Shown piece after piece: positions 7,730 through 11,727 of a DNA stretch of 64,000 nucleotides. The position numbers and the translations under genes were made by a program. The notes beneath the pieces are model-generated. The model searched no databases. It saw only the letters and a list, made by a program, of their open reading frames with translations, and had not been told where the DNA came from. Each line of letters starts with the position of its first letter. Positions within the stretch are counted from its first letter, which is position 1. Source of the stretch: Reichenbachiella versicolor (GTDB lineage: Bacteria > Bacteroidota > Bacteroidia > Cytophagales > Cyclobacteriaceae); the NCBI RefSeq assembly GCF_003171675.1, contig NZ_QFZQ01000008.1:124001-188000 (forward strand), written 5' to 3'.

Positions 7730-7752
7730 ATCTATTAGAAAATATGAATTTA

Positions 7753-7781
7753 AAGCTCAGCTATTTAGCTGGGCTTTTTTT
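7753..7781 (+). terminator. Intrinsic terminator of the beta-barrel gene
   Basis: 10-bp stem AAGCTCAGCT / AGCTGGGCTT (one G-U pair) with a 4-nt loop and a run of seven T. It ends the transcript of 7199-7729. Confidence 0.87.
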
Positions 7782-7871: not shown

Positions 7872-7879
7872 TATCTTTG
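7872..7879 (+). promoter_or_regulatory. -7 promoter element of the sulfite reductase leader
   Basis: TATCTTTG is an exact TAnnTTTG match. It predicts a start near 7885, so the leader RNA up to the terminator at 8085 would be about 200 nt. No -33 TTG is visible in the A-rich stretch upstream. Confidence 0.55.
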
Positions 7880-7929
7880 AACCCCAATTTATTTTCCTGC
7901 GTTGACAGGATCACGATTGAGAATATCCA

Positions 7930-7998
7930 ATGAAAAAACACACATTAAATATTTCTATGACGGAGACTTGTCTAAGGGCATGTTGCTGGAGCGTGTGA
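7930..7998 (+). CDS. Cysteine-rich leader peptide of the sulfite reductase gene
   Basis: A 22-codon reading frame (7930-7998) ending in MTETCLRACCWSV. Three of its last nine codons are Cys (7969-7971, 7981-7983, 7984-7986), a strong bias for a residue that is normally rare. It lies between a -7 promoter match (7872) and an intrinsic terminator (8051-8085) that precedes sir. A second in-frame ATG at 7957 would give a 13-aa peptide holding all the Cys codons. The expected role is a ribosome-stalling sensor: low Cys-tRNA stalls translation and frees the 7989-8008 segment to pair with the terminator's 5' arm. Role and translation are inferred; the codons and RNA complementarity are seen directly. 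Confidence 0.7.
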   Translation: MKKHTLNISMTETCLRACCWSV

Positions 7999-8069
7999 AT
8001 GTGAGAGGAAGATTTAATGAACAAAATATTAATTAAGGAAATAAGACATTAAAAGCCTCTTCGACGCTC
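7989..8069 (+). promoter_or_regulatory. Antiterminator pairing of the sulfite reductase attenuator
   Basis: Segment 7989-7994 (GAGCGT) is complementary to 8064-8069 (ACGCTC), and 8003-8008 (GAGAGG) to 8056-8061 (CCTCTT, one G-U). Both pairings have the same order and polarity, so they form one antiterminator stem with an internal loop. That stem uses the 5' arm and loop of the terminator at 8051-8085, so the two structures exclude each other. The upstream strand overlaps the end of the leader peptide frame. Confidence 0.6.
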
Positions 8070-8085
8070 ATCGGGAGGCTTTTTT
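8051..8085 (+). terminator. Attenuator terminator upstream of sir
   Basis: Stem AAAAGCCTC (8051-8059) with GAGGCTTTT (8075-8083), a small inner CGA/TCG helix, and a T-run to 8085. It lies directly before sir (ATG 8106), with the Cys leader peptide upstream, so it looks like a conditional terminator rather than the end of a gene. Confidence 0.85.
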
Positions 8086-8105
8086 CGTTGCAAAACCAAA
8101 CAACT

Positions 8106-10232
8106 ATGCAAAGTTTCAGAACAGAACTCGAAAACCTTGAAAATCCTGTCGTACAACAGGATATCATCGATTTAGAGAAAAAGATTCGTGAATTTAAAGA
8201 TGGTAAAACAGATCCGGATAAATTCCGAAGCTTGAGATTAGCTAGAGGTGTCTATGGCCAGAGACAGCCAGGCAATCAAATGGTAAGAATTAAGATTCCA
8301 TTTGGTAAGATGTCCGTAAAGCAATTGAAAAGAATTGCTGATATATCTACTGAGTATGGTGGAGGAAACTTGCATGCTACCACACGACAAGATATCCAGA
8401 TTCATTATGTTTCTCTAGACAGAACGCCCGAATTATGGGCTAAACTTGAGCAAGAAGAGATTACATTGAGAGAAGCTTGTGGAAACACTTTAAGAAATGT
8501 TACCGCTTCACCAATAGCTGGTGTTGATCCTAATGAGCCTTTTGATGTCTCTCCCTACGCATATGAATTTTTTAAATACTTTTTAAGAAATCCGGTTTGT
8601 CAAGAGATGGGACGTAAGTTCAAAGTTTCATTCTCCTCAAACGAAAAAGATACAGGTATTTCTTTCATTCACGATATTGGATTTATTCCTAAAGTAAAAA
8701 TTGTTGATGGTAAAGAAGTCAGAGGTTTTAAAGTGATGATTGGTGGAGGACTAGGTGCTCAACCTATGCCAGCTCAGATGGCTTATGAATTTTTGGAAGA
8801 AGACCAGATGATTCCATTTTCTGAGGCACTTTTAAGAGTATTTGATAGATACGGTGAGCGTAAGAGAAGAGTAAAAGCAAGATTCAAATTCTTATTGGCT
8901 GATATCGGCTTAGAAGAAGTAATGAGATTAGTTAAAGAAGAATGGAAAGCTATTGGCTCAAAAAGTTATAAAGTAGACAGCGCTTCTAAAATCCCTTCAA
9001 TTCCACAAAATGTTGTTTTTTCAGATAAGGCTGTTACAGACCTTGATCATTATGAAAAGTGGAGAGAAACCAATGTCAAGCCTCAAAAGCAGGATGGATA
9101 TTTCTATGTACAAGTAAAACTTCCAAATGGTGATATGAGCTCAGAAAGAGCGCATAAGTTTGGCAATATAGTCTTGAAATATGCTGCTGATGATATCAGA
9201 GTGACGGTAAATCAAGGTTACCTTTTGAGATACGTGAAGGAGGATTCCTTGAAATCTCTTTACGCTGAACTAAAAGAGTTGAATTTGGCTGACCCTGGTT
9301 TTGATTCTACAGCAGATATCATTGCTTGTGCAGGTACCGATACATGTAACTTGGGTATTTCCAATTCTACTAGAGTTGCTTTAGAACTTGAGCAAGTAAT
9401 CGAAAGCGAATATCCGGAGCTCTTGAAAAATGAAGACATAAAGATAAAAATTAGTGGATGCCCTAACTCTTGTGGTCATCACGGTATAGCAGGTATCGGA
9501 TTCCATGGTTCTTCGTTGAGACATAAAGTAACTAAAAAGACTCTTCCAGCTGTACAAGTGTTATTGGGAGGTGGACTAGGTCACAATGGTGAAGGATACA
9601 TCGCAGAAAAGGTCATAAAAGTGCCAAGTAAGCGTGCTCCAGAAGTATTAAGAATTCTGTTCAAAGATTATGCTGAGAATGCTCAAGAAAATGAGAAATA
9701 CGCATTGTACTTTAGAAGACAAGGTAAGGACTATTTTTACCAGTTGTTGAAGTTCTTGGCTGATTTGGAAACTGTAAAGGATTCCGACTATATCGATTGG
9801 GGTAAAGATCAGCAATTTAAAGTCGAAACGGAAGTAGGTGAATGTGCTGGTGTAATCATTGATTTGTTCCAGACATTGATGTACGAGGCAGAAGAAAAGT
9901 TAGGATGGGCAAAGGCTGCTTTTGAAGGTGATAATATCGCTGACGCGATTTATCATGCTTATAATGTGAAGATTAATGGAGCAAAGGCACTGTTAGTAGA
10001 TAAAGGAACTACTGTAAATACTCAGGCAGGTATCATGCAAAGCTTTGACGAAGAACTTGCAGAGAATTTTACAGACGTTTTGAATGGTGATTCATATACA
10101 GAATTTGTATTGAGAATCAATCAAAGTGAACCTAGTAAGGAGTTTGCTGAAAAGTATATTTCGGAAGCAGATGCTTTCTTAAAAAAGGTAAATGAAGTAC
10201 AAGCTACAGTTACTGAGGAAGCTACTGTATAA
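8106..10232 (+). CDS. sir: Siroheme-dependent sulfite (nitrite-family) reductase with C-terminal HEPN-like domain
   Basis: Six-electron reduction of sulfite to sulfide in the cytoplasm, using siroheme coupled to a 4Fe-4S cluster. The 708-aa protein has two ferredoxin-like/4Fe-4S repeats: LHATTRQDIQIHYV and ASPIAGVDPNEPFDV in the first half, and the cluster ligands C-x5-C (CAGTDTC) and C-x3-C (GCPNSCG) in the second. The last about 130 residues (from AGVIIDLFQTLMYEAEEKL) are an all-helical HEPN-like extension seen in Bacteroidota homologues. I chose the ATG at 8106; the in-frame TTG at 8088 sits on the terminator edge. cobA and precorrin-2 dehydrogenase downstream supply the cofactor. The Cys leader argues for sulfite over nitrite as substrate. 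Confidence 0.92.
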   Translation: MQSFRTELENLENPVVQQDIIDLEKKIREFKDGKTDPDKFRSLRLARGVYGQRQPGNQMVRIKIPFGKMSVKQLKRIADISTEYGGGNLHATTRQDIQIHYVSLDRTPELWAKLEQEEITLREACGNTLRNVTASPIAGVDPNEPFDVSPYAYEFFKYFLRNPVCQEMGRKFKVSFSSNEKDTGISFIHDIGFIPKVKIVDGKEVRGFKVMIGGGLGAQPMPAQMAYEFLEEDQMIPFSEALLRVFDRYGERKRRVKARFKFLLADIGLEEVMRLVKEEWKAIGSKSYKVDSASKIPSIPQNVVFSDKAVTDLDHYEKWRETNVKPQKQDGYFYVQVKLPNGDMSSERAHKFGNIVLKYAADDIRVTVNQGYLLRYVKEDSLKSLYAELKELNLADPGFDSTADIIACAGTDTCNLGISNSTRVALELEQVIESEYPELLKNEDIKIKISGCPNSCGHHGIAGIGFHGSSLRHKVTKKTLPAVQVLLGGGLGHNGEGYIAEKVIKVPSKRAPEVLRILFKDYAENAQENEKYALYFRRQGKDYFYQLLKFLADLETVKDSDYIDWGKDQQFKVETEVGECAGVIIDLFQTLMYEAEEKLGWAKAAFEGDNIADAIYHAYNVKINGAKALLVDKGTTVNTQAGIMQSFDEELAENFTDVLNGDSYTEFVLRINQSEPSKEFAEKYISEADAFLKKVNEVQATVTEEATV

Positions 10233-10323: not shown

Positions 10324-11079
10324 ATGGGCAAAGCAAAGTTGACATTAGTAGGGGCTGGACCTGGTGATCCAGGACTATTTACATTAAAAGGAGTAGAAGT
10401 ATTAAAGTCCGCGGATGTGGTTCTATATGATGCTCTGGCCAATGAAGAATTGTTGAATCATTGCGGACCGAATGTCAAGAAGATATTTGTTGGGAAAAGA
10501 GCCAGCATGCATGCATATCAACAAGACAAAATAAATGAAATGATCGTTGAACATGCTAAGGAAAGTGGTCATGTAGTGAGGCTAAAGGGAGGCGATCCAT
10601 ATGTGTTTGGAAGAGGTCATGAGGAACTTGAATTTGCGGAAAAACATGGTATAGAGGTAGACTTAGTACCAGGTGTAACAAGTGCTATTTCCGTTCCAGC
10701 TTTGAATCAAATCCCATTGACGAGAAGAGGAATTAATGATAGTTTTTGGGTAATGACAGCTGTTCGAACCGATCATACATTGTCTCAAGATATTGGTTTG
10801 GCAGCTCAATCACAGGCTACTAGTGTTATATTAATGGGAGTAAAAAAGCTTCCTGAGATTGTAGAAGTTTACAAATCATATGGTAAGGAAAATACACCAG
10901 CCGCAGTTATTATGAATGGGTCGAAGCCTAATCAGAAAATTGTTATAGGGAGGGTAAACAATATTAATAGTCTTGTCGTAGAGAACGAGATTGGAGCTCC
11001 ATCCATTATAGTAATCGGAGAAACAGTCGCTCTTGGAGAGGATAAGTTAAAAAAAGAAATAGAATCCCTAAACATTTGA
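10324..11079 (+). CDS. cobA: Uroporphyrinogen-III C-methyltransferase
   Basis: SAM-dependent enzyme that methylates uroporphyrinogen III at C-2 and C-7 to give precorrin-2, the first committed step to siroheme. The 251-aa protein shows the family start LVGAGPGDPGLFTLKG (about 5-20), then VVLYDALANEELL, the SAM loop VRLKGGDPYVFGRGHEE, and VPGVTSAISVPALNQIPLTRRG. It is the single-domain form, not fused to CysG. Only 3 bases separate it from the precorrin-2 dehydrogenase gene, so the two form an operon that feeds the sulfite reductase upstream. A terminator lies immediately before its start codon. Certain assignment. Confidence 0.95.
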   Translation: MGKAKLTLVGAGPGDPGLFTLKGVEVLKSADVVLYDALANEELLNHCGPNVKKIFVGKRASMHAYQQDKINEMIVEHAKESGHVVRLKGGDPYVFGRGHEELEFAEKHGIEVDLVPGVTSAISVPALNQIPLTRRGINDSFWVMTAVRTDHTLSQDIGLAAQSQATSVILMGVKKLPEIVEVYKSYGKENTPAAVIMNGSKPNQKIVIGRVNNINSLVVENEIGAPSIIVIGETVALGEDKLKKEIESLNI

Positions 11080-11082
11080 TGC

Positions 11083-11727
11083 ATGTCAAGTCCAGCTGAA
11101 TTTGGAAATAATCTAATGCCCGTATTCCTAAAACTTGAAGAGCTCGATCTCTTAATTGTGGGAGGAGGTTTTGTAGGAATGGAAAAATTATCCGCTGTAC
11201 TTACTAATAGTCCGGAGACTAGGATCAAGCTAGTAGCTAAGGAAATTAGCGATGAGATAAAAGAAAAGGCTAAAAACTATTCTAATCTTAAATTGGTAGA
11301 AAAGCCTTATGAAAAATCTGATTTAGATGGAGCTCAAGTTGCCATCTGTGGAATAGACGATCCTGAGATTAGTGGTATCGTAGCAGCTGACGCTAAGGAA
11401 AAAAGAGTTTTGGTCAATATTGCGGATAAACCAGAATTGTGTGATTTTTATCTTTCATCCGTAGTGAAGAAAGGTGATTTAAAGATCGGCATTTCTACTA
11501 ATGGGAAATCTCCAACTGTTGCTAAGAGAGTAAAAGAATTTTTAAATGATTCAATTCCTGACAGTATTGATGATATTTTAGAAAACATGACCAAAATCCG
11601 AGAACAATTGAAAGGAGATTTTGAGTATAAGGTAAATAAACTAAATGCAGTCACTTCAGTTTGGAGTGATGATAGAAATAAAAAGGATGGGTTTGTGAGT
11701 AAAATAAGGTCTATTTTCTCGAAATAA
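11083..11727 (+). CDS. Precorrin-2 dehydrogenase / sirohydrochlorin ferrochelatase (CysG N-domain, Met8-like)
   Basis: NAD+-dependent oxidation of precorrin-2 to sirohydrochlorin, and probably iron insertion to siroheme. The 214-aa protein begins with a Rossmann fold (LDLLIVGGGFVGMEKLSAVL, about 20-39, GGGxxG). The family motif ISTNGKSPTVAKRVKEFL (about 132-149) lies in the dimerisation/catalytic part. Length agrees with Met8/YlnF-type stand-alone enzymes. It follows cobA with a 3-base gap. Whether it carries the chelatase step itself cannot be settled by sequence alone; no separate sirB is seen nearby, which favours the bifunctional reading. Confidence 0.88.
   Translation: MSSPAEFGNNLMPVFLKLEELDLLIVGGGFVGMEKLSAVLTNSPETRIKLVAKEISDEIKEKAKNYSNLKLVEKPYEKSDLDGAQVAICGIDDPEISGIVAADAKEKRVLVNIADKPELCDFYLSSVVKKGDLKIGISTNGKSPTVAKRVKEFLNDSIPDSIDDILENMTKIREQLKGDFEYKVNKLNAVTSVWSDDRNKKDGFVSKIRSIFSK

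Follow-up and report, generated by a model that had tools for sequence, protein, structure and literature searches.

Why would a short open reading frame (ORF) with clustered Cys codons and an intrinsic terminator lie in front of a sulfite reductase gene? This question is raised by a locus in a 64,000-nucleotide stretch of Reichenbachiella versicolor DNA (contig NZ_QFZQ01000008.1, positions 124,001 to 188,000; hereafter, the window). The preliminary description of this DNA had proposed Cys-dependent attenuation upstream of the gene (sir), and comparison among genomes (i.e., recurrence of the arrangement and a partner-swap test of its RNA pairings) supports that proposal. The leader is very likely a Cys-sensing, ribosome-mediated transcription attenuator of the sulfite reductase and siroheme genes, and through it the cell probably confines cysteine synthesis to times of shortage.

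Leader architecture and the putatively regulated genes

All of the leader parts originally noted between positions 7872 and 8105 are present, and sequence and folding bore out the promoter element, the three-Cys ORF, and the terminator. The features of the region are as follows.

About 7752 to 7777, forward strand: terminator of the upstream outer-membrane-type gene (AAAGCTCAGC..GCTGGGCTTTTTTT; terminator scan)
7872 to 7879, forward strand: Bacteroidota-type -7 promoter element TATCTTTG (sequence match)
7930 to 7998, forward strand: leader peptide ORF, MKKHTLNISMTETCLRACCWSV, 22 codons plus TGA (reading frame)
7969 to 7986, forward strand: putative regulatory Cys codons 14, 18, and 19 (TGT at 7969, TGT at 7981, and TGC at 7984)
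7989 to 7998 and 8004 to 8008, forward strand: antiterminator 5' strands with partner 8056 to 8069 (folding)
8013 to 8019, forward strand: further antiterminator 5' strand, UUUAAUG, with partner 8047 to 8053 (folding)
8047 to 8069, forward strand: antiterminator 3' strand, which shares bases with the 5' arm and loop of the terminator (folding)
8051 to 8085, forward strand: intrinsic terminator, with a hairpin at 8051 to 8083 and a T6 run at 8080 to 8085 (folding)
8106 to 10232, forward strand: sir, ferredoxin-type sulfite reductase (start ATG at 8106; Pfam NIR_SIR and NIR_SIR_ferr)
10324 to 11079, forward strand: uroporphyrinogen-III C-methyltransferase, for the siroheme of Sir (TIGR01469, 269.9 bits; cut-off, 185)
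11083 to 11727, forward strand: siroheme synthase N-terminal-type (precorrin-2 dehydrogenase) protein (TIGR01470, 108.7 bits; cut-off, 62.3)

The consensus of the Bacteroidota -7 element is TAnnTTTG. The match in the window stands 50 nt upstream of the leader ORF, and no clear -33 element was seen there by eye. The sequence TATCTTTGAACCC (or TATATTTGAACCC in L005) was found at the matching place in 7 of 7 same-genus genomes. The start ATG falls within invariant columns of the genus alignment, four rows of which are cut off before the -7 element. In all seven, the TTTG element and the start are present, as are four or more Cys codons in a run and the terminator, and the leader peptides include MKINTLYISKMIGCCQPCCCCTDCSTSGDIY and MNKTTLNNISIMNICWMCCCCMLSYSGRYTFNELLKDRS; the window, with 3 Cys in 6 codons, has fewer Cys codons than its congeners.

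The terminator hairpin has a predicted free energy of -15.3 kcal/mol (z, -3.36), and none of 200 shuffled sequences folded as well. Because the upstream gene has its own terminator, this second one would act on transcripts from the 7872 region, and the idea that the leader hairpin serves the upstream gene was rejected. The terminator ends 20 nt before the sir start, which is not obviously masked. A known Rfam element was also set aside as the identity of the leader, since no family reached its gathering cut-off, either at the leader of the window or at 19 leader loci scanned.

The genes downstream of the leaders fit the amino acid that would be sensed, as judged by family models (i.e., sir and the siroheme genes here, and a second operon described below); we take all of them to have roles in Cys synthesis. 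The uroporphyrinogen-III C-methyltransferase gene likely shares an operon with sir, given their spacing. All of the listed NCBIfam models score below their cut-offs for Sir. The best of these are NirA type and far below the cut-off, and a nitrite reductase was rejected as the identity of the protein. Against it also stands the gene order at 20 sir loci that lack the leader, where by eye the sir homologs follow cysH-cysD-cysN in 14 cases and a cysH-like gene in 4; the three genes were checked with models at one locus (L218), where cysH fell below its cut-off.

Reading of the Cys clusters as codons

Runs of TGY are not rare in this genome (TGYTGYTGY, 462 matches, versus 182 for the backward pattern). 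We examined the reading frame of clusters located near a terminator and picked without a start-codon rule (nine loci were dropped, leaving 101 of 110). An in-frame ATG without an intervening stop was found for 39 of 41 clusters, while the other two frames gave 3 and 9 of 41. On the basis of this excess, the Cys clusters behave as codons and not as an RNA repeat, and the same test argues against their being an RNA-binding motif. Across 45 leaders both Cys codons occur, TGT 165 times and TGC 67 times.

Recurrence upstream of sir across Bacteroidota

The Sir search matched 35 of 59 relatives (the window genome included) and 59 of 395 genomes sampled over the phylum, and two further loci came from named matches. 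Removal of overlaps left 94 upstream regions, of which 93 were distinct. L031, from Reichenbachiella agariperforans DSM 26134 (Cytophagales, Bacteroidota; Sir, 78% identity), was dropped because its upstream sequence is the same over 420 nt as that of L004 (genome G007), which belongs to the window's own genus. We searched the last 350 nt of each region for an ORF of at most 60 amino acids with at least 3 Cys in 9 codons and a terminator 15 to 110 nt downstream. The cut-offs (terminator score, gap, ORF length, and Cys density) were set by hand after a first view of the upstream regions, and the exact counts depend on them.

The combination was found in 33 of the 93 distinct sir upstream regions, that of the window among them. 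Shuffling the whole set 20 times with dinucleotides preserved gave no such case, and neither did any of the 93 reverse complements. The 33 loci belong to eight families (f1, f5, f22, f26, f44, f45, f60, and f63) and one Flavobacteriales metagenome-assembled genome; Cys runs are thus conserved well beyond the seven same-genus genomes, as the earlier proposal had required. Outside the Cys codons, the peptides diverge (e.g., MTETCLRACCWSV, MNICWMCCCCMLSYSG, and MMACFCCCRNCISREHL). In five more f22 loci, a terminator accompanies a short ORF that is poorer in Cys codons, with either two adjacent (L034, L035, and L038), two apart (L033), or one by eye (L040). The f22 leader ORFs (L033 to L040) start about 5 to 15 nt past a shared TATATATTTG-like element (TTTG), so that their transcripts may be nearly leaderless. 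At L030, the attenuator sits between sir and a homoserine-sulfhydrylase-type gene, the best model for which scores slightly under its cut-off.

The remaining 60 of 93 sir upstream regions, including all 28 loci of family f25, lack the combination under this rule. We also considered that leaders might stand farther upstream, at the start of longer operons; no Cys ORF with a terminator was found within 6 kb upstream of the 20 leaderless loci mentioned above (12 from f25). About 650 nt upstream of sir at one leaderless locus (L229), a neighboring gene resembles by eye an Rrf2/CymR-type regulator (MLSKKTKYALKAMIVLARNHG), which is a candidate for alternative control of sir.

A probable second target operon

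Pattern searches over the 59 relatives gave matches in 46 and 40 genomes. They were noisy, with hits in a number of genomes for the reversed pattern that served as control, and we followed up only the matches with Cys runs. These led to leaders before an operon encoding a PLP-dependent cysteine-synthase-type protein, a JAB-domain peptidase, a ThiS-type carrier, and a ThiF-type protein (PALP, Prok-JAB, ThiS, and ThiF domains by family models), which we take to correspond to the CysM-Mec-CysO-MoeB/Z set named after mycobacteria. The CysM protein matched 49 places, 30 of which were given as loci and examined; 16 of the 30 are cysM orthologs (at least 52% identity), and 14 are cysK-like (at most 44%). 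A leader precedes 14 of the 16 orthologs versus 0 of the 14 cysK-like paralogs. The two orthologs without one are L197 and the locus in the window's own genome (L189). All seven other genomes of the genus have the cysM leader, and the window genome may have lost Cys control at this operon. Thus, the device described before sir stands, while its restriction to sir was too narrow.

Another pattern search yielded 17 matches, 8 of them at sir or cysM leaders, and 0 in controls. A candidate target in G052, the one examined among the other nine, and two more (L232 to L234) were rejected, as they look like ordinary coding sequence.

Two exclusive pairings

When the RNA from 7984 to 8072 of the window was folded, strands within 7989 to 8008 paired with 8056 to 8069, and 8013 to 8019 paired with 8047 to 8053 (-17.8 kcal/mol). 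The first of these pairings had been predicted in the preliminary description; the second helix was missing from it. In isolation, this antiterminator fold was matched by 7 of 200 shuffles.

For each locus, we took the best duplex that the sequence following the last Cys codon can form with the terminator 5' arm plus loop, and we then exchanged partners among loci. Of the 55 leader-terminator pairs, 45 were kept after removal of eight near-identical congener rows and of one second terminator each at L191 and L192. The mean duplex energy was -13.6 kcal/mol with the locus's own arm and -9.7 kcal/mol with permuted arms, and none of 5,000 permutations reached the observed value. The terminator arms vary by lineage (GCCTCTCC, GCCTTTCC, GCCTCTGCGG, CCCCGG, and CCCTTCG), and the strand that follows the Cys codons varies in step. 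The two exclusive stems are therefore conserved in kind, with each antiterminator strand tracking its own terminator arm across diverged sequences. At the level of single pairs, 24 of 45 beat 95% of their shuffles and 21 did not, and the own arm was best or tied in 13 of 45. For the window, the own arm ranked best of the 45 arms, and 1.5% of shuffles were as good. Covariation within the genus alignment was set aside, since one row had its terminator arm shifted by MAFFT, and the partner-swap test was used instead.

The position of the strand relative to the Cys codons also fits the proposed role. In 31 of 45 pairs, the antiterminator strand begins 5 to 18 nt past the last Cys codon, which is about where a ribosome held at that codon would end. 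In 49 of 55 pairs, what remains exposed after the stop codon folds more weakly than -8 kcal/mol; the exceptions are L182 to L185 and, at L191 and L192, the second terminators. In L182 to L185, the stop codon directly follows the Cys run and leaves the antiterminator uncovered. In these four cysM leader ORFs, the stop codon shares bases with an ATG (TAATG) immediately 5' of the antiterminator strand, and re-initiation there could cover the strand left free by a terminating ribosome.

Proposed mechanism and alternatives

We infer promoter use, translation, stalling, termination, and a response to cysteine as follows. Transcription would start just after position 7879, and a ribosome would translate the 22-codon leader, as the reading-frame evidence suggests. 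When Cys-tRNA is short, the ribosome would stall at codon 14, 18, or 19, leaving the RNA from 7989 to 8019 wholly or partly free to pair with 8047 to 8069 before the terminator 3' arm is made; with this antiterminator formed, RNA polymerase would read into sir and the siroheme genes. When Cys-tRNA is ample, the ribosome would reach the stop codon at 7996, its leading edge (12 to 14 nt past the first A-site base) would come near 8008 and cover the main antiterminator strand, and the hairpin at 8051 to 8083 would form and stop transcription.

Folding of the window leader in steps is consistent with this scheme. Before the 3' arm is made, the predicted fold has -17.8 kcal/mol with a stall at codon 14, -11.4 kcal/mol at codon 18, and -10.6 kcal/mol (a variant fold) at codon 19, and -2.6 kcal/mol remains with a ribosome at the stop codon. 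The spacing is thus such that a stalled ribosome would free the antiterminator and one at the stop codon would cover its main strand. In the complete leader, the terminator is the minimum-energy state even with a stall at codon 14; since it wins at equilibrium, antitermination has to depend on kinetics. A window leader that carries no ribosome also forms the antiterminator ahead of the 3' arm, and a protector (1:2) hairpin is not evident in this one fold, so that an untranslated leader is predicted to read through. In this respect, the window leader would differ from the classical ones; in the trp leader, the lack of translation leads to termination via the protector hairpin.

It is improbable that the leader acts mainly on translation or mRNA stability, with the hairpin serving as a processing or 3'-end element. 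Canestrari 2020 reportedly describes mycobacterial poly-Cys small ORF (sORF) attenuators, leaderless by the title. A 2026 paper calls that mechanism translation attenuation (PMC13236596), which lends this alternative some weight, as do the stop codons of L182 to L185 that leave the antiterminator free and the Cys-ending ORFs of some genus cysC leaders, for which the scan gave no intrinsic terminator. Against these points, a hairpin and T-run lie between the Cys ORF and the gene at 47 loci (33 sir and 14 cysM), the hairpin being itself part of the search rule; the antiterminator pairing is matched to it; and the window terminator ends short of a sir start that is not obviously masked.

A functional small protein (e.g., a metal- or thiol-binding peptide), whose terminator merely ends its own transcript, is less probable still. 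Cys runs do resemble metal ligands, and the frame test supports a genuine ORF, as this explanation would have it; the peptides differ widely outside the Cys codons, however, and they keep a fixed place before two Cys-pathway targets, with an antiterminator strand that fits the terminator arm. Least probable of all is a chance coincidence of short ORF, terminator, and partial complement, which the modest Cys cluster of the window, the frequent TGY runs, and the 7 of 200 shuffles might have suggested and which is already refuted for the group of loci by recurrence at 33 of 93 sir and 14 of 16 cysM loci versus none in shuffles.

Relation to known attenuators

The classical ribosome-mediated transcription attenuators are the trp, his, leu, and ilv leaders, and textbook attenuation by an intrinsic terminator covers Trp, His, Leu, Ile/Val, Thr, and Phe; to our knowledge, it does not include Cys biosynthesis. 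The leaders described here share with the trp, his, leu, and ilv leaders a clustered-codon ORF, an intrinsic terminator before a biosynthetic gene, an overlapping antiterminator, and a spacing that would let a stalled ribosome leave the antiterminator free. They differ in that they would sense Cys, that they would control sulfite reduction or CysM-CysO-type synthesis, and that units in series occur. Judged from its sequence, the leader would extend the classical mechanism to another amino acid, pathway, and phylum.

In actinobacterial cys operons, leaders with Cys codons were predicted, which in Mycobacterium lack a conserved terminator hairpin (PMC1262725). For mycobacteria, Shell et al. put forward cysteine-directed attenuation as the first case of its kind (PMC4633059), and mycobacterial poly-Cys sORFs before sulfur or cysteine genes were proposed to sense Cys (PMC9094748). 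Those sORFs and the present leaders have in common a short ORF with a Cys run before such genes; unlike the former, every leader counted here comes with an intrinsic terminator, and as a group the present leaders show matched antiterminators. Because a terminator is present in the window, we do not file its leader with the mycobacterial attenuators. In Rhodobacterales, the uORFC-8-2 motif before cysS, the gene for cysteinyl-tRNA synthetase, is a predicted upstream ORF with two tandem Cys codons and an intrinsic terminator, at which stalling is predicted to give read-through (PMC8632094). The combination of Cys ORF and intrinsic terminator is shared; by its description, this alphaproteobacterial case is set apart from ours, which concern biosynthetic genes of Bacteroidota, mostly longer Cys runs, and units in series.

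Within the phylum, leader-peptide attenuation was noted for amino-acid operons of Flavobacterium psychrophilum (PMC9723704), and leader-like sORFs were reported for Bacteroides thetaiotaomicron (PMC7366714); both resemble our case as instances of inferred leader-peptide attenuation, and the excerpted main text of these accounts does not name cysteine or sulfite genes. Term searches in PMC2965389, PMC11109978, PMC6429828, and PMC10219788 turned up no mention of Bacteroidota Cys leaders. In the open-licence literature (articles without supplements), no Cys attenuator upstream of sulfite reductase or CysM-CysO genes of Bacteroidota came to light. The suggestion that a Cys version may be undescribed needs narrowing, as Cys versions had been proposed in Actinobacteria and predicted in Rhodobacterales.

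About 200 nt of sequence thus predict a signal (charged Cys-tRNA), a direction of response, and two target operons. Through its regulation, and not only through homology, the sulfur-carrier route (CysM-CysO-Mec) would be linked in these bacteria to Cys starvation, and the congener set provides natural variants, including units in series, for testing.

Units in series and further Cys-ending ORFs

Two leader-terminator units stand in series before sir at L015 (L015/L180) and before cysM at L193 and L195. Two other loci (L028 and L112) have two Cys ORFs, and L191 and L192 have two terminators. A broader reading, which we offer tentatively as possible but short of probable, is that Cys synthesis (i.e., sulfite reduction and the CysM-CysO route) in much of Bacteroidota forms a Cys-tRNA attenuation regulon and is not governed by a CysB/CymR-like regulator, that two attenuators in series sharpen the switch at some loci, and that the antiterminator is the default state, so that a lack of translation would mean read-through.

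A third Cys-ending short ORF was observed before a cysC-cysD cluster in four of the eight genus genomes (L061, MNEKCLYKYHESTTCCCLYA, with similar ORFs in L062, L063, and L066). It was not seen in L067 and L068, and its place falls outside the locus in L064 and L065. The scan found no T-run terminator at these ORFs, and by eye inverted repeats seem to bracket them; they possibly represent another mode of Cys sensing.
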